Of a stretch of 10,963 bases of DNA, positions 2,075 to 10,963 are shown piece by piece. Position numbers and translations under genes: made by a program. The DNA lies in contig JAFGQA010000316.1 of assembly GCA_016935885.1 (NCBI GenBank), positions 1-10,963 on the forward strand. Reading direction: 5' to 3'. Source of the stretch: Phycisphaerae bacterium. Its GTDB lineage: Bacteria > Planctomycetota > Phycisphaerae > UBA1845 > UTPLA1. The stretch's first letter is position 1. The number at the start of each line of letters is the position of its first letter. Below the pieces are notes generated by a model that searched no databases, was not told the DNA's origin, and was given only the letters and a program-made list of their open reading frames with translations.

Positions 2075-3985
2075 CTACGGTACCGGCAGCGCCGGTCTCT
2101 GGGGCGTCGGGAGGCCCAGCAGGTCGAGGATCGGCTGCCTGGCACCCATGGGGTCGAGCAGCAAGTTCGCATCGGGCAGCGCCATCCAGCACAGCGGCTT
2201 GGGGCTTTGAGCAAAGAATCGCAGTTGGCTGTCGAAGGTGACTGGGGGCGCGGGCATTTGGGCCTGGGCCATCATCTCGATCGACGTGGAGAGGCCGGCA
2301 AAACTCTCGACCAGTTCGCCAATGGACGCGGGCCGCGGATAGTGGACCAGCTTGATCTCAGCGCTGGCCGGGATGTCGGCCATGTCGCGGACGGCAGCGA
2401 TGGCGTCCTTCAGACCGCCAAGGCGGTCGATCAGGCCGATCTCGAGGGCTTGGCGGCCGGTATAGATCCGGCCTTCGGCGATCTTACGGACTTCATCCTT
2501 GGGCATCTTTCGCGTCGCGGCCACGCGGTCGAGGAAGATCTCGTAGAAATCGAGGATCAGCTTCTGAATGAAGTCGCGGTCTTCGGGCCGCATGTCGCGA
2601 TGTCCGTAGCCGAGCAGCGCTCGATCGCCGTGCTTCATCTCGGCGAGGTTGACGTCCATGCGGTTATAGGCGGAGGCCCGATTCGCGAGGATGCCGATCA
2701 CGCCGATCGAGCCGGTAAGGGTCGTCGGCTGGGCGAAGATAAGCCGGCCTGGACAGGCGATGTAGTAACCGCCGGACCCTGCGACCGTGCCCATGCTTAC
2801 GACGAGGGGTTTCTCCTCATCCAGTTCGCGGAGCTTCTGCCAGATGACGTCGGAGGCATAGCCGGAACCACCGGGGCTGTCGATGTGCAGCACGACGGCG
2901 CGGACTGTCTTGTTCTTGCGGATCTGCTCGATGGACTTGACGAATTCGTCGCGCATGACGTACTGGGTGGTGAAACCGGGCCCGAGGTTGGAGTCGATGA
3001 TCGGACCGCGGGCGTGGAGCACCGCGATCTTGGGCCCGACGTCGGTGTAGCTCTTTTGAGCCTCCTTGACCTGTTTCTGCCAGGCGCTGAGCAGGTCGTT
3101 CAGCGAGGTGATCTTCGCGAAGTCGGAGCCTTCCTGGCTCGCCTTCTTGAACTTGTGGCGGCGGATGACCCGATCACAGTAATCGTCGTAATAGCCGATG
3201 GCGTCGACAAGGCCGCGGTTCTTCGCCTCCTCGGCACGGAAGTAGGCAATGTCGATCATCTTCTCGACCTTCTCGGGTGAGATGCCTCGACCGTCGGCGA
3301 TGAACTTGACATAGTCCTTAAACCAACCGTCGAGAAGCTCTCCGAACTCCTCGAGGAAGTACTTGTTCGGCTCACGTCGATTGACGAACCCGGGGTACTT
3401 GAAACGGCCGGCGGTGATGACGTCGTACTCGATGCCCCGCATCTGATACATGCCTCGCATGAACGGGAAGACATGTCCGATACCTGGAATCGCGAGGTCA
3501 CCGGTCGGGGCAATGGCGATCTCGTCGGCTTGGCAGGCAAGCAGATAGCCCATGGGGCCGCCGGCGTTGAGGAAGGCAAAGACCTTCTTGTCGGCCTTGC
3601 GAAAACTGGCGATGCCAGCCCTCAACTCCTCGATGTCGGCCAGGCCCAGGCCAAGGCCGTCCAGGTTCAGGAGAATGGCGCCCACCTCGTCGTCCTCGGC
3701 GTACTTCTCAAGGCGCTCAAGGAGTTCGCGGATGGTCTGTGTTCGGCCGGGCATCGGAATGTTGATCGCCCGGGCCGGCACGAGGAACGGGTCGAGCCTG
3801 AGCTCGACCAGCTTCTTGATCGGGCTGGGTTTGTCCTTGTCCTTGCCTTTGTCCTTGGCCTTCTCCTCGACGAGCTGCTTCTTGCCTTTCTTCTCGTCCG
3901 ATTTGCCCTCGTCGGCGTAGGTCGGCAGTGCCAACGACGATGTCAGGAACAGTGCTGCAATCAGGGGTAGAAGTGTCCGGCGCAT
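2075..3985 (-). CDS. sppA: Signal peptide peptidase SppA-type serine protease (S49 family)
   Basis: The 636-aa protein is a long, two-domain S49 protease close in length to E. coli SppA (618 aa), a membrane enzyme that degrades cleaved signal peptides. The start is ATG at 3985, with GGAGA 6 nt upstream and a classic signal sequence directly after it (residues 1-24, ending LPTYA). A GTG 45 nt further upstream would spoil this sequence. Residues 25-55 form a lysine-rich linker. In the N-terminal domain, K196 in AGRFKYPGFV matches the family's general-base lysine. In the C-terminal domain SPGGSG (about 370-375), the nucleophile S404 in VAGSGGYYIA and GSIGVIG (about 425-431) are intact. The enzyme should act at the cytoplasmic membrane or in the periplasm. 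The gene starts 60 nt after the stop of the large secreted-protein gene and is probably cotranscribed with it. Confidence 0.93.
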   Translation of the reverse strand: MRRTLLPLIAALFLTSSLALPTYADEGKSDEKKGKKQLVEEKAKDKGKDKDKPSPIKKLVELRLDPFLVPARAINIPMPGRTQTIRELLERLEKYAEDDEVGAILLNLDGLGLGLADIEELRAGIASFRKADKKVFAFLNAGGPMGYLLACQADEIAIAPTGDLAIPGIGHVFPFMRGMYQMRGIEYDVITAGRFKYPGFVNRREPNKYFLEEFGELLDGWFKDYVKFIADGRGISPEKVEKMIDIAYFRAEEAKNRGLVDAIGYYDDYCDRVIRRHKFKKASQEGSDFAKITSLNDLLSAWQKQVKEAQKSYTDVGPKIAVLHARGPIIDSNLGPGFTTQYVMRDEFVKSIEQIRKNKTVRAVVLHIDSPGGSGYASDVIWQKLRELDEEKPLVVSMGTVAGSGGYYIACPGRLIFAQPTTLTGSIGVIGILANRASAYNRMDVNLAEMKHGDRALLGYGHRDMRPEDRDFIQKLILDFYEIFLDRVAATRKMPKDEVRKIAEGRIYTGRQALEIGLIDRLGGLKDAIAAVRDMADIPASAEIKLVHYPRPASIGELVESFAGLSTSIEMMAQAQMPAPPVTFDSQLRFFAQSPKPLCWMALPDANLLLDPMGARQPILDLLGLPTPQRPALPVP

Positions 3986-3991
3986 GATCTG

Positions 3992-3996
3992 TCTCC
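3992..3996 (-). promoter_or_regulatory. Ribosome binding site deciding the sppA start
   Basis: The minus strand reads GGAGA with 6 nt before the ATG at 3983-3985. It favours this start, which begins the signal peptide, over the in-frame GTG at 4028-4030. Confidence 0.6.
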
Positions 3997-4045
3997 ATAA
4001 ACGAACCACTCGGCTTGAGCGGTAATACACACACCAGCCGCACGA

Positions 4046-6400
4046 TCAGGCGGCTTTCTTTTCTTTCTCCTCATCAGCGGGCGCGTCCGATTCCGCGTCG
4101 GTCGATTTCGTCTCGGCCGGTTTTGGGATTCGGTGGATCTTTTCGTTTGCGTCGATGCAAATGGTCTTGTAGTTCACGAATTCGCCGTCACGGAACTTGA
4201 GCTTCCAGTCATCAGGTGACCAATCGATGACGTAAAGCGAATCGTCGATCTCGTCGTCCTGGTCTTCGTCGTCGGCTTCACCTTCCTTCTCGCCGGTGAA
4301 CATGGATACAAGGCCGGCGGTGAAGCCCTTCTTCTTCGGGCGGAGACGCAACAGCTCGGGATGCGAGGCGAAATCGACGTATCCGTCGAGTTCCGCCACG
4401 GTGGCTGGCCAGCGGCCGTAGTCCTTCTTGAACAGCTCGGCGTGATGGTAGAGCACACGCAGGTGCTGGCAGGCAACGCGTTCGCGGGCGGCTTCCGACG
4501 ATGGATCGGCAGTAGCGCCGAGTGAGGCGATGGCAACGGCGGGGACGTACACCACGCCAACCGGCACCGGCCCTGTGTGACGCACCTTCAGCCCCCCGAA
4601 TTCAATGCGAATGTTGATGACCGCGTCGGCCAGCACGTGTTCCAGCTCGTCGGCCGTGGGCGGCAGCGTGGCTTCTTCGGATAGACCGGCAACCAGCGAC
4701 AAGTACGGTTGAGCGAGATCGTAGATCCGCTTCCAGTTGATCCTTGCCTGCCAGTGCGTCTTCTTCGAATCCGGGATGGTGATCCTGGACTTGCGGCGTT
4801 TCGTCAGTTCCTTCCAATGGTGCAGGGCATCGTCGGCCCAGGTGGGGGTCTGCGCGATGATCAGGCCCACCTGCTCGGATTCCTCCTCGGAGCCGCGCTC
4901 ATCGAAGAACACGACCGTCCGGTAAGTGACCGGCATCAGGCTGAAGCCGCGATCGGCGGACGGATCCCGCCAGAACACCGGCTTGTCGTCGATCTCTTCC
5001 TCGCACCAGGCCGGGGGGCGGTCCTCCTCCGATCGCTCCTTGTTGTCCTTCTCGATGGCCTCGCGGATTGATTCCACGATCTTGTCCTTGCGACTTGCCT
5101 TGAACTGGTAGTACAGATCGGGGAACGGCAGAAAGCCGGTGCCGGGGACGGCGGCGAAGGCCATCTCGCCACCCGCGCGAGAGCCGATCGTGTCAGGCGG
5201 CAGACCAGCCAAAGCGTCGGCGATGCCTTGACCGAAGCCGGTATTGAACGCCGCCACGGCGTAGGACTCTCGTGGGCACTCGAACGGCTCCTTCAGCTTC
5301 TTGAAGCCGGCCTTAAGGAATGCCCCGATCAGCGGATTCCAGCGGATGGTGAACTTCTCGCTCCACAGGCCGTCCTTGCGGAGGGAGCCCCCGTAACGGA
5401 CGTCCTTCACGCCGGAGATCATGGCAAACCGGGATTCTCCATCATCGTCGTCCCCGCCAGCCAGGTTGAGCCGGCAGTAGATCAGCGAGGTCTTCTTCTT
5501 TTTCTTCTTCTCCTTTGATGTCCCAGAAGACTCGGAGGACGCCGCGGACTTGCCTGATGCAGCCTTGTCGCCGGATGCCTCCTGACCAAAGATCGTCTCA
5601 GGCGGCTCCAGATCGGCCGTGGACGCGATCAGGGTGCCGTCATCGGACTCAAGAAAGACGGCAAGCACGAGATCGGGCAACTCCAGTCGATAGCTTCCGT
5701 CGTCGCCTTCGTTCAACCTGACGTCCTTGAGGATCTTGCCGGTGGCTTCCAGCTCCAGGAGGGCCTCCAGGCGCCCGCGAAGCTCGTCGAGAGGCCAATT
5801 GACTCGGACCGCCCAACGCGGCCGGCCTTCGCGATCCTGCGTGTAGACCGTGAAGGCGATGGATGTGTCGGGCCACTCACAGATCTGCTTGAAAACCTCG
5901 AGCAATGCGCCGATGTCGAAAGCGTCGTCCGTCTCGTCCGTGCGCAAGGAGACCATGCCAACGATGGCTTGATAGATCTCTGCCGTGTTGGAACGTCTGC
6001 CGGAATCGGCAAGCGCGGCGATGGATGGGATGTAGACCTCAACCTGAGGCGTGTTAGCCTTGTCCTCCTCCTCGGCCTTTTCCGCGGGCTCGCTGGTGGA
6101 GGCCCCGGCATCGGCTGGCTTGGCGGATTCGCTGCTTGCCCCTTCATCTTCGTCCTGTGTTGAGCGGGGTTCCTCCTTGTCGGACGTCTCTGAATCCGCG
6201 GTAGATTCTTCGTCCTCGCCCGCTTCCGGTTTATCGGTCTTGTCCTTCTTCGGTGGCTCCGTTGAGGCCAGGATGGCGGGGAACGAGCCGTCAGAAACGG
6301 TGGGGGCCCCGAAACCGTCGCTCGGCGCCGCCCCGATGAACAGGATCGCGATTACACAGAGCCCGAAGCAAGCGCCGATACGCGAATGGAAAGATGCCAC
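4046..6400 (-). CDS. Large secreted, highly charged protein of unknown function
   Basis: I do not recognise this 784-aa protein as a named family. Residues 1-32 look like a signal peptide (hydrophobic core about 10-24). Residues 48-118 are a disordered, Glu/Asp/Ser-rich stretch, and 274-305 are Ser/Ala-rich ending in six lysines. Between them, 119-272 look folded. A second folded part covers about 305-610. Residues 612-630 are hydrophobic and are followed by a helix with HHAELFKKDYGRWPATVAEL (651-670), resembling the helix after the membrane segment of type II secretion/type IV pseudopilins; a very acidic patch (705-720) and a charged tail follow. The start is GTG at 6400 with GGAGGG 7 nt upstream and a good promoter behind it. 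It leads a likely two-gene operon with sppA, which suggests an envelope role. Export is well supported; the function is unknown. Confidence 0.85.
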   Translation of the reverse strand: MASFHSRIGACFGLCVIAILFIGAAPSDGFGAPTVSDGSFPAILASTEPPKKDKTDKPEAGEDEESTADSETSDKEEPRSTQDEDEGASSESAKPADAGASTSEPAEKAEEEDKANTPQVEVYIPSIAALADSGRRSNTAEIYQAIVGMVSLRTDETDDAFDIGALLEVFKQICEWPDTSIAFTVYTQDREGRPRWAVRVNWPLDELRGRLEALLELEATGKILKDVRLNEGDDGSYRLELPDLVLAVFLESDDGTLIASTADLEPPETIFGQEASGDKAASGKSAASSESSGTSKEKKKKKKTSLIYCRLNLAGGDDDDGESRFAMISGVKDVRYGGSLRKDGLWSEKFTIRWNPLIGAFLKAGFKKLKEPFECPRESYAVAAFNTGFGQGIADALAGLPPDTIGSRAGGEMAFAAVPGTGFLPFPDLYYQFKASRKDKIVESIREAIEKDNKERSEEDRPPAWCEEEIDDKPVFWRDPSADRGFSLMPVTYRTVVFFDERGSEEESEQVGLIIAQTPTWADDALHHWKELTKRRKSRITIPDSKKTHWQARINWKRIYDLAQPYLSLVAGLSEEATLPPTADELEHVLADAVINIRIEFGGLKVRHTGPVPVGVVYVPAVAIASLGATADPSSEAARERVACQHLRVLYHHAELFKKDYGRWPATVAELDGYVDFASHPELLRLRPKKKGFTAGLVSMFTGEKEGEADDEDQDDEIDDSLYVIDWSPDDWKLKFRDGEFVNYKTICIDANEKIHRIPKPAETKSTDAESDAPADEEKEKKAA

Positions 6401-6883: not shown

Positions 6884-7849
6884 TCAGTCCCTGTGCGAAA
6901 GGAAGCCGATGCTGGACTGGAACATCCGCTCGGTCAGGTCGCTGTCTGGCGACTGCTCGCTCGCCGCCATCAGGTCATCAAGATTGGCCCGGCACATCAG
7001 GCATCTGACCGTATCGAGATGGAAGGCGGTATAAGACTGCCACGGCTCTTCGAGGACGCCCAGCAGATACGAGCCGATCGTGCTGCGCTTCAGGCAGCTC
7101 AGCCGCCGTTGGCGCCAGACGCGGGCGATAGTCGCCTCGCTGGAAAGCTCCCGGCCTTCCAAGAGATCACGGTCGGCTGTGCTCAGTTCGTCGAGGAACT
7201 CCCGCAGCCGACCCAGTGCCCGGAACTTGACACCTGCGACGGCCTTCTCGTCTCGATTCAACCGCTCTGCCGCCTCCTTGTTTCGCAGCCCGACGTAGAA
7301 CAGCAGTTCGACCACCTGCAAGTCATCGAGCTTGCCGCGGTCCCGCAACTCCTCGAACAGACGGCGAAGGATCTTGGCCAACACGTCCGCCTGACGCTCG
7401 GTGCGCTCGTGTTGAGCGGCAATCTGACTGGGCGTCTCGGAGACGGAAGGCTCCGGCATACCCGGGGAGTCGTCGTCGATGTCGAACCCGTCGGTGTACT
7501 CGGGGTGGCGTTGCCTCCTGGTGAGGAGTTCGCCGATCTTGTACCGGAGAATCGCGAACAGATAGGTCTCCAGCGACCGGCTTTCATCGTAGTGCCGCAG
7601 GCTTGTCACAAAGCCCATGAACGCCTCCTGCAACGCGTCCTCGGCATCGCCGACCCCGCGCAGCCGGCTCCGCGCGAACGCCAGGAGTCGTCCCTGATAA
7701 CGATCGATCAACTGGTGCCAGGCACGCTGGTCGCCCTTGCGAATCGCGTCGATCAGGTATCCGTCCGCGTCGTTCGTCTGCGCCAAGATTAGAGGCCCTT
7801 GTACACGCCTGCCGTCACTGTGGATCAGGCGTCGCGCCTGATTCTCCAC
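6884..7849 (-). CDS. ECF sigma factor with C-terminal zinc-binding-like extension
   Basis: The 321-aa product is a sigma70-family ECF factor that would direct RNA polymerase to a special promoter set. Region 2 covers about residues 44-112 (LIDRYQGRLLAFARSRL, DAEDALQEAFMGF, TYLFAILRYKIGELL). An acidic linker (115-150) follows, and region 4 covers about 160-220. Residues 240-295 are an extra domain with C252, H277, C283 and C286 around SYLLGVLEE, resembling zinc-binding anti-sigma folds. I recall similar tails in planctomycete ECF factors linked to Ser/Thr kinases. The listed GTG start has a poor ribosome site. A TTG at 7784-7786, with AAGGG 9 nt upstream, would start MAQTNDADGY and fits the usual N-terminus better, giving 300 aa. 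The gene lies 153 nt after the membrane-protein gene and is likely part of the kinase cassette. Confidence 0.88.
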   Translation of the reverse strand: MENQARRLIHSDGRRVQGPLILAQTNDADGYLIDAIRKGDQRAWHQLIDRYQGRLLAFARSRLRGVGDAEDALQEAFMGFVTSLRHYDESRSLETYLFAILRYKIGELLTRRQRHPEYTDGFDIDDDSPGMPEPSVSETPSQIAAQHERTERQADVLAKILRRLFEELRDRGKLDDLQVVELLFYVGLRNKEAAERLNRDEKAVAGVKFRALGRLREFLDELSTADRDLLEGRELSSEATIARVWRQRRLSCLKRSTIGSYLLGVLEEPWQSYTAFHLDTVRCLMCRANLDDLMAASEQSPDSDLTERMFQSSIGFLSHRD

Positions 7850-7890
7850 CGCCCTGGGCAGTGGCGCGACACGGGTATGCTATCACCGCC

Positions 7891-7927
7891 GAGACGGCAG
7901 TGCCACGGACGTTCATCTTGGTGCCAC
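7891..7927. repeat. GTGCCAC-type repeats in front of the sigma factor gene
   Basis: GAGACGGCAGTGCCAC (7891-7906) and a second GTGCCAC (7921-7927) match the repeat family found at 51-229. They lie in the 153-bp gap between the membrane-protein and sigma genes, where a promoter would be expected. No clear -35/-10 pair is visible there, so the sigma gene may be read from the upstream kinase promoter. Confidence 0.4.
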
Positions 7928-8002
7928 AGATAGTGGGTCGGGGCAGGTAATCAGGTCAGCAGACCCGGCCCACACGGCTGGGTGACGGCCGCGCGCGTCT
8001 GC

Positions 8003-8608
8003 CTACGTCAGCAAATCCATCTGCGAGATCAACAAGCAGACGGCGATGAAGGCGACGGCGGCGGAAATCCTCCGCAGCCAAACATGGCGGCCGTGCGAGG
8101 GTGCATCGACGAATAGGTGGCCGAGGATGACCAGGACTGCCAACGCCCCTGCTCCAGTCACCTGCCCGAGAACTGATCGCCGTGTGCCAGGATCGCGGAC
8201 CGATGCCTTGCCATCCCGACCCTGTACATCCCGCTCTGATTCCGAATGGATCGTGACGACACACGTGGAATCGTCGCGATCATCCTCCCAGTCCGTTTTG
8301 GCAAATGCGTTCTCGATCATGCGCTTGGCACGTTCGACTTCGGCCACCGCAGCGAGGCTTTCGGCTTCGGCGGTCACCATGGCGCGATCGGCCACGGCGC
8401 GAGCGGTGGTGGATTGGACCGCAAACATGTGCGCGACCAACCCGCCCAACAGGACCAAGGCAAAGATGGCCGCGACGCCCACGCCGAGTATGACCCCGAC
8501 CGCTCCCCTCCTTCGGCAGGCAGCGACGAAAAGGGCGATGATCGTAACGAGCAGGCCCGCGCCCCAGAGCACACCGGAAACGCCGAGGCCCAGACCGCTC
8601 ATGCTCAT
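8003..8608 (-). CDS. Small four-helix membrane protein of unknown function
   Basis: I do not recognise this 201-aa protein. It has two hydrophobic segments near the N-terminus (about 8-30 and 36-62), a soluble middle (about 65-145) that begins as an Ala/Glu-rich helix (68-103) and turns charged (EDDRDDS at 108-114), and two more hydrophobic segments (about 148-168 and 181-198). With four segments both ends face the same side. Its ATG overlaps the kinase stop in an ATGA junction, and GGAGGT lies 6 nt upstream inside the kinase gene, so the two are probably translated together. Position between a membrane kinase and a sigma factor suggests a partner, such as a sensor subunit or kinase/sigma regulator; this is inference from context only. 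Confidence 0.78.
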   Translation of the reverse strand: MSMSGLGLGVSGVLWGAGLLVTIIALFVAACRRRGAVGVILGVGVAAIFALVLLGGLVAHMFAVQSTTARAVADRAMVTAEAESLAAVAEVERAKRMIENAFAKTDWEDDRDDSTCVVTIHSESERDVQGRDGKASVRDPGTRRSVLGQVTGAGALAVLVILGHLFVDAPSHGRHVWLRRISAAVAFIAVCLLISQMDLLT

Positions 8609-10963
8609 GCTGGGACCTCCTCGACATTCTGCGGCACAGACCGGCCGCCCAGGAGTTCCTCAAGATCGCGCAGTTCATCCTGAAGCACGACCATCATCTT
8701 CTGGTCCGGAGTATTGAAGGCCCTCTCTATGTCCAGATAGCAGGTCAGGCGGTAGCCGCCGTGATCGAGCTCGTAGGCGGCGATGTTGAGCCTCGTGCCC
8801 CAGCGTCGGACATCCGATTGCCAGAATTGGAATGCCCAGTTGCCACGCGTGAAGGACCAAAGTAGGTCGGACTTGCTGGCCAGCGAGTAGCCGAGCATGG
8901 TCATGTGGCGTTCGATCAGGCGGGAGAGGTTGGCGTTGGCGTCGATCTCAAAAACAGTGCGGAGCGGCAAGGCGAGCTTCGGCGGCTTGACCTTCTTCCG
9001 GCGACTCAGGCGGTATCCTACCACCAGAAACGTAATTGCCACCGCCATCAGCGGGGCGGTCACGGCGGGCATCACAACATCCAGATCTCGATCAGGAACC
9101 GTCGTCGCGACGATCGGCAAGACGCCCATCATCATCACGAACAGTACGCCGGCGATCGCCATGAGCCGTTTGCCCTTGCGGATTCGGGGTGATTCCGCGC
9201 CGTCGGCCAAGGCACGCTGAGCCGGCGGCACGTAGGCCGGGACTGGAACGAACCAGACGAACAGGCTGACAATGCCGCCCGCGATGACGCATCCGAGCGT
9301 GATGAGGAACACCTCTTCGGACAAGGGATGGAAGAGGCCGAGAGCGGCACCGCACGCGCCGGACGCGGCCGTTCCGGTAAAGAAGACGGCCTTGCGGAAC
9401 ACGCCCCGCCACAGACCGTTCTTGTAGCGGGGAATGGCACAGCACAGGGCGAACAGGAAGTAGTTCGCTGCGACGATACCGCCGAGGATGAAGCAGCCAA
9501 AGTCATCTTCGTAAAGATTGAGGGTCCCCGAGGCAATGAAGGCCATGGCCGTGGTCAGCATGAACAGCCCGGCTACAAACAGCCATAGCGACCGGACGGC
9601 GGTGCTTCGTCGGGGCCGCTCGCCGGGGATTGCCGCGCTTGCTCGCTCCAAAGGTTGTGCACGGCTGCCTGCCTCCACCGCCACGCCCGGCGAAGTCAGA
9701 CCGTCGGCGCCGCCGGCTACAGCGGCTTCCGGCAAGGGCGTGGTTCCGCCATGGATGTCGCTGCGAACGGAATCACCGCCTTGAAAGGTTGCCCAATCCG
9801 TGCCGGGTGCGAGCGGCCACAGACCGCCGACCACCTGGAGGGCGAGTGAAACGGCGGCGGCGATCGCCGCGACGGTGAATCCGTAGCCATCCGCAAGAAT
9901 CAGGCCGGCAACAAGGCAGAACAGACCCACGGAGAAGGCGGAGCCAAGTTGGACGTGCCCCTTCCGGCCTTCTCGGAGGCGGCCCGGCCAATCGCACAGC
10001 AACATGGACAGGAGCAAGGGCGCCACCCAGGGTTCGGCCCGCCAGCAAAGGGCGTAATCGGCGAACAGGACCGCAGGCACAAGGCCCGCACCTACAAACG
10101 CGGTGACGATGAACCGTGGCAACCATTCGCCCGGGATGTGGAGCCGGTTGAAACTCAGCCAGCAGCCGAGCATCACGCCCGGGACGATGGCAAGGATGTG
10201 AAAAAAGACGGCCGTAGCGAATAGTGGGTTTCCGTCCGCCGCGAGCAGACTGGTGCCGAAGGAGATGCCGCCGGCCACCAGCAGCGCCATGAGGATCCTC
10301 TCCGCCCAGTGAGCGGGCCGTTGCGAGGCCTGTGCGACCTGCCGGCCGATCGGGCTGTTGTCGATCCGCCCGACGGCGCGATGAACGCGGGAGCCGATTC
10401 GGTTGTGCATTCGGCCGAAGCGACCACGGGAACAGGAGCCGTGGATCTCAACCCGCGCGGCGTTGCCGATTCTGTCTGGGAGCGACGTGGGGTTGATCAC
10501 GGGCGGCGGCACGCTTTGGCCGACGTTGCTGCTGCCCGTGCCGAACGGGCCCACGCCGCCTCCGCCCCCTGCCGGGGCGACTACGGCGACGTTGACCCGT
10601 TCCGCGACACGGGCCGCGACCGTCGAGAGGCTCGCAGGCTCGAAGGTCGCGACGGACTTGTCCAGGTCTTCGACCTCGAAGACTTCACCAACCATCTCGC
10701 CGACGGTCTGGTATCGATCCTTTGGATCCTTCGCCAGCGCCTTACGGATGACACGCGGGAACGGCTCTGGCAACTCGTCCACCTCCGGCTGCGCCGTCAG
10801 GTGCTTCATCAATACTTCGCCCATCGTCTGACCGGAAAACGGCACACGCCCCAACAGCATCTCATACAGCATCACACCCAACGCGTAGATGTCGATCGTC
10901 CGGTCGTAGTTGCCGCTGCCCACCTCCGGCGCCATGTAGTGAACCGTGCCCACCGACACCGTC
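8605..10963 (-). CDS. Membrane Ser/Thr protein kinase, N-terminus outside the window
   Basis: At least 785 aa are visible and the reading frame runs off the right edge. Positions count from the GTG at 10959. The first residues, SVGTVHYMAPE (2-12), are the end of a Hanks-type kinase activation loop (subdomain VIII). They are followed by DIYALGVMLYEMLLGRVPF (23-41, subdomain IX) and KDPKDRY (77-83, subdomain XI). The ATP site and catalytic loop must lie beyond 10963, so the GTG is internal. A Pro/Gly-rich linker (about 125-160) and a basic stretch (165-215) lead to about 12 hydrophobic segments between 222 and 648, split by a soluble loop at 382-453. Residues 660-784 form a soluble domain I cannot assign, rich in aromatics (LLWSFTRGNWAFQFWQSD). 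With an even helix count both ends would be cytoplasmic. It is the first visible gene of the kinase-membrane protein-sigma cassette. Confidence 0.9.
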   Translation of the reverse strand, partial: TVSVGTVHYMAPEVGSGNYDRTIDIYALGVMLYEMLLGRVPFSGQTMGEVLMKHLTAQPEVDELPEPFPRVIRKALAKDPKDRYQTVGEMVGEVFEVEDLDKSVATFEPASLSTVAARVAERVNVAVVAPAGGGGGVGPFGTGSSNVGQSVPPPVINPTSLPDRIGNAARVEIHGSCSRGRFGRMHNRIGSRVHRAVGRIDNSPIGRQVAQASQRPAHWAERILMALLVAGGISFGTSLLAADGNPLFATAVFFHILAIVPGVMLGCWLSFNRLHIPGEWLPRFIVTAFVGAGLVPAVLFADYALCWRAEPWVAPLLLSMLLCDWPGRLREGRKGHVQLGSAFSVGLFCLVAGLILADGYGFTVAAIAAAVSLALQVVGGLWPLAPGTDWATFQGGDSVRSDIHGGTTPLPEAAVAGGADGLTSPGVAVEAGSRAQPLERASAAIPGERPRRSTAVRSLWLFVAGLFMLTTAMAFIASGTLNLYEDDFGCFILGGIVAANYFLFALCCAIPRYKNGLWRGVFRKAVFFTGTAASGACGAALGLFHPLSEEVFLITLGCVIAGGIVSLFVWFVPVPAYVPPAQRALADGAESPRIRKGKRLMAIAGVLFVMMMGVLPIVATTVPDRDLDVVMPAVTAPLMAVAITFLVVGYRLSRRKKVKPPKLALPLRTVFEIDANANLSRLIERHMTMLGYSLASKSDLLWSFTRGNWAFQFWQSDVRRWGTRLNIAAYELDHGGYRLTCYLDIERAFNTPDQKMMVVLQDELRDLEELLGGRSVPQNVEEVPA
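8615..8620 (-). promoter_or_regulatory. Ribosome binding site inside the kinase 3' end
   Basis: GGAGGT on the minus strand lies 6 nt before the ATG at 8606-8608. It sits within the last codons of the kinase gene and supports coupled translation of the small membrane protein. Confidence 0.65.

Follow-up and report, generated by a model that had tools for sequence, protein, structure and literature searches.

How is an extracytoplasmic function (ECF) sigma factor kept under control when its gene follows that of a Ser/Thr kinase and no anti-sigma gene is seen nearby? The question is raised by a 10,963-nt stretch from a Phycisphaerae bacterium (contig JAFGQA010000316.1; below, the window), whose end carries genes for a polytopic membrane Ser/Thr kinase, a 201-aa membrane protein and an ECF sigma factor. 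All three lie on one strand, the first two coupled through ATGA, as the original prediction had stated; the strand is minus, and the order is conserved in the related loci L001 and L002 and across the class. The same prediction noted no separate anti-sigma gene. This is literally right, as none was found among the six window proteins scanned, but misleading: the sigma factor carries a C-terminal Cys/His domain that forms a separate downstream gene in some relatives. This domain and an FHA-like gene that heads the operon in relatives go beyond the original prediction. The module thus comprises an FHA-like protein, a polytopic Ser/Thr kinase, a membrane protein with a variable loop, an ECF sigma factor and a zinc-finger-type domain, and it is widespread in planctomycetes. 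On sequence grounds, the cassette seems to be a variant of kinase-linked ECF regulation whose sigma factor carries the anti-sigma domain in its own chain.

The sigma factor and its C-terminal domain

The sigma factor is assigned to the ECF type (group 4) by matches to Sigma70_r2 (48.3 bits, cut-off 24), PF07638 (26.7, cut-off 21.1) and TIGR02937 (74.5, cut-off 42.9); Sigma70_r4_2 reaches only 18.1 bits, under its cut-off of 25.7. Judging from close homologues, the start codon is the TTG at 7786 (300 aa, protein P0002) instead of the GTG at 7849. Of 4900 candidates in a homology search, 1299 proteins reached E<=0.001, and the 120 listed were mostly about 300 aa long. The AlphaFold2 (AF2) model of the full protein has a predicted local distance difference test score (pLDDT) of 79.8, and the fold matches listed for it covered residues 3-212. 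No hydrophobic stretch was found in the window copy and in 84 of 85 relatives. The sole exception, L082, has one such stretch and an ORF (open reading frame) longer than most, with the start codon as called.

The class-level search found the sigma factor in 133 of 397 genomes, of which 84 sites were taken as long loci and, together with L005, form the set of 85 loci considered below (L001-L005 and 80 others). The class-level alignment has 86 rows, and 85 of them share C231, H256, C262 and C265 without variation, as well as K233, R234 and T236. The candidate ligands are spaced C-x24-H-x5-C-x2-C in the window sigma factor. In the 86th row, L005 from Pirellulales, the Cys/His region is missing from the sigma ORF and is encoded there as a separate ORF. 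The AF2 model contains four helices in the domain (220-226, 234-242, 249-260 and 263-277), the blocks of residues 221-270 having pLDDT means of 87 to 96.

When the domain by itself was searched for at the level of the phylum, 51 of 294 genomes gave a match. Five of these are known class genomes; loci were fetched for 38 of the other 46 and not for the remaining eight, and the addition of L005 gave a set of 39. The genome draws carry no kinship information, and some genomes of the phylum draw may belong to the class. All 39 copies retain the CHCC residues. The domain is fused to the sigma factor in nine loci; in 14 it follows a two-domain sigma factor as an ORF of its own, and in 16 it lies at another locus. 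Among the 14 separate downstream copies, 12 are within 100 nt of the sigma gene or in overlapping frames, and two (L247 and L263) are at 0.7-0.8 kb.

The 16 genomes of the last kind all have a sigma match elsewhere (E 1.7e-41 or better). Fifteen of these matches stop at query positions 196-208, before the domain, and that of G611 extends to 231 across a stop. The FHA-like protein is matched in 14 of the same 16 genomes, mostly in its C-terminal part. Around the 16 sigma genes, a kinase is encoded upstream in nine loci and the sigma factor stands alone in seven. The kinase-sigma interval contains an ORF with at least three hydrophobic stretches in all nine loci, and only that of L285 matches the hairpin profile described below. 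In L005, an FHA-like ORF, a kinase, the sigma factor and the separate domain are present, without a matched membrane protein. Since the domain, fused or split, and its partners recur in this set, the module is probably older than the class.

A further observation concerns the copies with no sigma gene nearby. Twelve of the 16 such copies were inspected (L248 and 11 others), and in these the N-terminal half resembles LLAYLDESL...LRxRLAxL, recalling the N-termini of anti-sigma factors.

Resemblance to ZAS domains

The domain seems to be ZAS-like, its resemblance being weak but above controls and short of that of a proven ZAS member. A ZAS profile was built from 12 of 30 zf-HC2 loci of related genomes, namely those with an open [H/C]-x3-C-x2-C frame. 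Comparison of the class-level domain set with this profile by hhalign gave a probability of 26% and a score of 24.2, while 40 shuffles reached at most 11.5. With the broad domain set the probability was 69% and the score 31.7, 60 column-shuffled controls reaching at most 12.7. The Cys columns were in register. The separate copy in L247 matches zf-HC2 over the domain at E=0.0016 (18.9 bits, under the cut-off of 22.2), and in L272 a true zf-HC2 domain (31.5 bits, same cut-off) precedes the domain copy. As the domain resembles ZAS above controls, the anti-sigma factor that appeared to be missing is probably fused to the sigma factor itself.

Several results weigh against this assignment. In the hhalign alignment the His misses its column by two positions, and zf-HC2 exceeds its cut-off in none of 29 fused domains. 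The usual ZAS spacing is H-x3-C-x2-C, with a further ligand upstream, whereas that of the domain is H-x5-C-x2-C. A sequence search of PDB gave three matches for the domain, none convincing (E 0.9, 5.7 and 7.1). Finally, the domain modelled by itself gives a poor structure (pLDDT 58.5), for which there was a single fold match at E=9.3.

Another possibility is that the domain is no inhibitor and serves for docking or for redox or metal sensing, bringing the sigma factor to the kinase/FHA complex or shifting promoter choice. We consider this unlikely. Against it stand the 14 of 39 loci in which the domain is a protein of its own encoded after the sigma gene, and the extra zf-HC2 or anti-sigma-like N-terminal half of some copies, a common look of anti-sigma genes. 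On the other hand, it would agree with the zf-HC2 scores of the fused domains, which stay under the cut-off. The C-terminal extensions of ECF41, ECF42 and ECF238 are, moreover, listed under different modes of action in PMC8999054.

Region 2.2 and candidate phosphosites

A known kinase-linked case differs from the ZAS-like inhibitory domain proposed here. EcfP lacks the DAED motif, and its phosphorylation in region 2.2 activates it (PMC8999054, PMC8103513). In the 86 class-level sequences the motif is DAED in 51 and EAED in 24 (together 75), the last position is D in all, and the window copy contains no Ser or Thr. Since the motif is intact, phosphorylation of region 2.2 by the kinase, which would supply negative charge for RNA polymerase binding, is disfavoured; direct phosphorylation of this kind is in our estimate improbable. 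The kinase gene does adjoin the sigma gene, several planctomycete groups are filed under phosphorylation (PMC8999054, section 12 and table), and some groups have Ser or Thr within the motif or close to it (PMC8999054). Thr also occupies the first motif position in 7 of 23 divergent sigma factors of the phylum set; however, the E/D-D pair is kept in 22 of them. Kinase-linked ECF sigma factors outside ECF43 keep a DAED-like motif and may work differently, and their study has been called for (PMC8999054, section 12).

If the kinase acted on the Cys/His region, two positions would be candidate phosphosites. Thr236 is T in 85 of 86 class-level rows (the other has a gap) and in only 10 of 39 phylum copies, which speaks against a general role in the proposed switch; it was demoted from leading candidate for this reason. 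The nearby R234 is kept in 35 of the 39. Position 292, in the C-terminal tail, holds Ser or Thr in 85 of the 86 class-level rows; among the 39 phylum copies, 37 have one of these residues there and the other two have gaps. Given the difference between the two positions in the phylum set, the tail is the better candidate. It is modelled at low confidence (pLDDT 47 in the last block of the AF2 model).

The operon and its FHA-like head gene

In relatives the operon is headed by a gene encoding an FHA-like protein, which precedes the kinase gene; in the window this position is beyond the edge. The protein has about 530 aa and consists of a repetitive N-terminal part, helical-looking in the alignment, and an FHA-like part. 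It was found in 134 of 397 class-level genomes: 127 have both it and the sigma factor, six the sigma factor alone, seven the FHA-like protein alone, and 257 neither (Fisher 1.5e-86, shared ancestry ignored). One of the seven, G123, has a sigma fragment at a contig end. All 14 FHA genes read outside the main sigma loci are followed by a kinase domain on the same strand (G369: short 176-aa ORF), and hence the FHA-like protein and the kinase form the tightest pair.

In seventy loci the sequence before the sigma gene extends for 6.5 kb or more. The kinase, the FHA-like protein and the membrane protein are all present in 30 of them, kinase and FHA-like protein only in 22, kinase and membrane protein in one, the membrane protein only in one, and none of the three in 16. 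One of the 22, L107, does have a membrane-protein match, which overlaps the start called for the sigma gene; it is really the 31st complete locus, and 22 becomes 21. Absence of the membrane protein means here absence of a profile match; for example, L084 and L088 have an unmatched hydrophobic ORF in its place. A kinase domain lies within 6.5 kb upstream of the sigma gene on the same strand in 53 of the 70 loci.

Some of these data argue against a single switch with fixed parts and a phosphothreonine reader. The 16 loci without any partner beside the sigma gene and the 21 or 22 with kinase and FHA-like protein and without a membrane-protein match are of this kind. In L001, the sole member scanned, the Pfam FHA score is 19.0 bits, under the cut-off of 20.7. 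The FHA Gly-Arg motif appears by eye to be lost in the most distant class-level group, and its loss therefore counts against a phosphothreonine reading there.

The window part of the kinase is 58% identical to the complete 964-aa kinase of L001. The Pkinase match (51 bits, Pfam cut-off 31.7) spans only positions 156-253 of the 263-position profile, so the catalytic loop is beyond the window. DYG follows HRD in 56 of 56 relatives picked by an HRD-like pattern, which have HRD by construction; in the window copy the catalytic motifs are off the edge. At the C-terminus (8605-8950), about 110 aa (LGYSLASKSDLLWSFTRGNW...) form a soluble domain that by eye resembles those of the L001 and L041 kinases and for which a Pfam scan gave no significant match.

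Two additional genes were seen in some operons. Firstly, another Ser/Thr kinase gene immediately precedes the main one in L001 (4023-6242, with a TM2 domain), L002, L043, L052, L062, L074 and L080. Secondly, in the distant class-level group a gene of 240-330 aa precedes the FHA-like gene and heads the operon (L094, L112, L114 and 15 further loci). Its product looks like a coiled coil; 16 of 18 copies have one hydrophobic stretch, and the single copy scanned had no convincing Pfam match.

The membrane protein

The 201-aa protein was predicted to have four helices, and the Kyte-Doolittle count agrees: two N-terminal and two C-terminal hydrophobic stretches start near residues 5, 33, 144 and 175. 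A direct homology search, which scored the 8000 candidates sharing most words with the query, found only the protein itself; the relative in L001 is 31% identical. We thus used a profile of the C-terminal two-helix hairpin (family A3), comprising 27 rows, the window and 26 loci where the protein precedes the sigma factor; a first local version omitted five poor rows. This profile has 64 matches in 63 of 397 genomes. The original prediction would have been refuted by homologues lying mostly apart from kinase and ECF genes, and this outcome did not occur: 56 matches are directly upstream of the sigma gene in the same orientation (gaps of 8 to 733 nt, with a median of 117; 216 nt in the window), which by subtraction of the 26 profile-building loci leaves 30 of 38 independent matches.

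The stretch between helices 2 and 3 varies from about 90 to about 300 aa, and the turns on the other side read as short and Arg-rich. By the positive-inside rule, this suggests that the variable stretch is extracytoplasmic; the short turns would therefore leave little cytoplasmic protein to hold the sigma factor. A relay of a membrane signal to the kinase and retention of the sigma factor had both been suggested for this protein, and the first fits better. In the split genomes G185 (C75) and G257 it is encoded after the kinase and FHA genes with the sigma gene elsewhere, and in G022, G259 and G392 it is on the same contig and strand as the FHA gene. G295 is split over contigs, and the matches in G182 and the second in G185 are weak. 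G369 speaks against a relay: the membrane protein is encoded beside the sigma factor there, at a distance of about 170 kb from the FHA gene. This arrangement and the position directly before the sigma gene would suit a membrane anti-sigma factor tethering the sigma factor, but such a role is very improbable given the apparently very short cytoplasmic parts, the company of the kinase in G185 and G257, and the lack of a match in the 21 or 22 loci that keep kinase and FHA-like protein.

Candidate promoter of the operon

Upstream of the FHA gene, a search for dyads with no preset pattern found a best exact dyad in 18 of 52 loci (shuffle maximum 6). The pattern RAATAWY-N13-CSAATWC, with fixed spacing and drawn from these same sites, occurs with at most two mismatches in 27 of 32 closer-group loci (11 exact) and in 3 of 640 shuffled sequences. 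Its boxes are separated by the same distance as in the GAAC-N16-CGTC promoters of other ECF sigma factors. When every gene of those loci is considered, the FHA genes among them, 26 of 330 upstream regions have a match of this level. Outside the discovery set, exact matches precede FHA genes in G003, G164, G208 and G123. We infer that the sigma factor autoregulates its own operon.

In the most distant class-level group, none of 20 regions before the FHA gene has a match with up to two mismatches. An AATA-N15-CGAC dyad precedes the extra head gene in 7 of 18 loci of that group (shuffle maximum 4), which is a weak signal. No match with up to two mismatches was observed in the window, where the start of the operon is beyond the edge, and no dyad above shuffles was seen directly upstream of the sigma gene.

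A search with the exact pattern gave 24 matches in 16 genomes and none for the reversed pattern. Six matches precede an FHA gene, and no other gene family recurs among the ORFs downstream of the 24. Across the 397 genomes the pattern exceeds the reversed control, by eye, also in genomes without the sigma factor. The reversed pattern is thus a poor control, and no regulon is claimed.

Features of the window

Coordinates are collected in Table 1. The 784-aa protein, without a convincing Pfam family, and the SppA-type peptidase trail the sigma factor in several close relatives and may represent a linked envelope function. Both are downstream in L001 to L003, where relatives of the 784-aa protein are 47-53% identical. 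Between the sigma gene and the 784-aa gene, terminator-like (6671-6651) and promoter-like (6490-6462) matches occur, both near shuffle level.

Table 1. Features of the window (positions in the 10,963-nt window; cassette genes all on the minus strand)
Feature	Position	Strand	Remarks
Ser/Thr kinase, polytopic	8605..10962	-	N-terminus truncated at window edge; last part of catalytic domain, ten hydrophobic stretches and a soluble domain at the C-terminus
201-aa membrane protein	8003..8608	-	ORF; start overlaps kinase stop via ATGA
ECF sigma factor, 300 aa	6884..7786	-	TTG start; homologue lengths; TIGR02937 match
DAED motif of sigma region 2.2, residues 47-50	7637..7648	-	alignment of 86 sequences
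C-terminal Cys/His domain of sigma, ZAS-like, residues 220-277	6956..7129	-	C231, H256, C262, C265
C-terminal tail of sigma, S-S/T-x-G-F-L, residues 291-296	6899..6916	-	conserved; candidate phosphosite
Codon of Thr236	7079..7081	-	invariant at class level only
784-aa protein, function unassigned	4046..6400	-	downstream neighbour in close relatives; possibly separate transcript
SppA-type S49 peptidase	2075..4030	-	Peptidase_S49 215.7 bits; same neighbour in L001-L003

Comparison with known systems and a possible mechanism

Ser/Thr protein kinase-linked groups, namely ECF43 (EcfP/PknT, EcfK/PknS) and the planctomycete ECF59, ECF61, ECF62 and ECF217, likewise have the kinase gene beside the ECF sigma gene, usually without an anti-sigma gene (PMC8999054). 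The window module shares the adjacent kinase with ECF43 and differs from it in the intact DAED motif. Compared with the linked groups in general, it adds the FHA-like protein, the membrane protein and the C-terminal Cys/His domain, ECF59, ECF61, ECF62 and ECF217 being compared by description only. A zinc-finger-like domain C-terminal to the sigma factor is also known in ECF48, ECF52 and ECF53 (SCO4117) (PMC8999054). However, these groups are actinobacterial, combine the zinc finger with transmembrane helices and are thought to be released by proteolysis, whereas the window sigma factor has no hydrophobic stretch and is linked to a kinase and an FHA-like protein. ZAS anti-sigma factors, including RshA, which is released by PknB phosphorylation (PMC8999054), share with the module a Cys/His domain of anti-sigma type and kinase-controlled release, the latter being proposed here. 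They are usually separate proteins encoded downstream of the sigma gene, and they differ in that the domain of the window sigma factor is in cis, has the H-x5-C-x2-C spacing and would be inhibitory by analogy. No description of the FHA-kinase-membrane protein-ECF module was found in the open-licence literature searched, which included passages of PMC8103513, PMC8999054 and PMC11032199, and we do not claim its absence from print.

The following mechanism has, in our judgement, about an even chance of being correct. At rest, the C-terminal Cys/His domain, possibly binding zinc, would keep its own sigma factor inactive. The kinase would be activated by an envelope signal, which its transmembrane part would sense together with the membrane protein, and would phosphorylate the domain, most probably in the SS/ST tail and less likely at Thr236. 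The FHA-like protein would read or scaffold this phosphorylation, and the sigma factor would be freed from its in-cis inhibitor. The free sigma factor might then also transcribe its own operon from the conserved promoter.

We more tentatively suggest a phospho-switch operating throughout the planctomycete phylum: an ECF sigma factor would be controlled by a membrane kinase, with an FHA-like protein as reader, through a fused or split ZAS-like inhibitory domain, the middle membrane protein being an exchangeable signal sensor. In this phylum, which has many kinases of the kind, the membrane protein with its variable loop would then be a candidate sensor. The natural fused and split versions provide ready controls, and the predicted promoter could serve as a reporter. 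If the mechanism is correct, the kinase acts on an in-cis zinc-finger domain and not on region 2.2, which would give a testable answer for kinase-linked ECF sigma factors that have a DAED-like motif.

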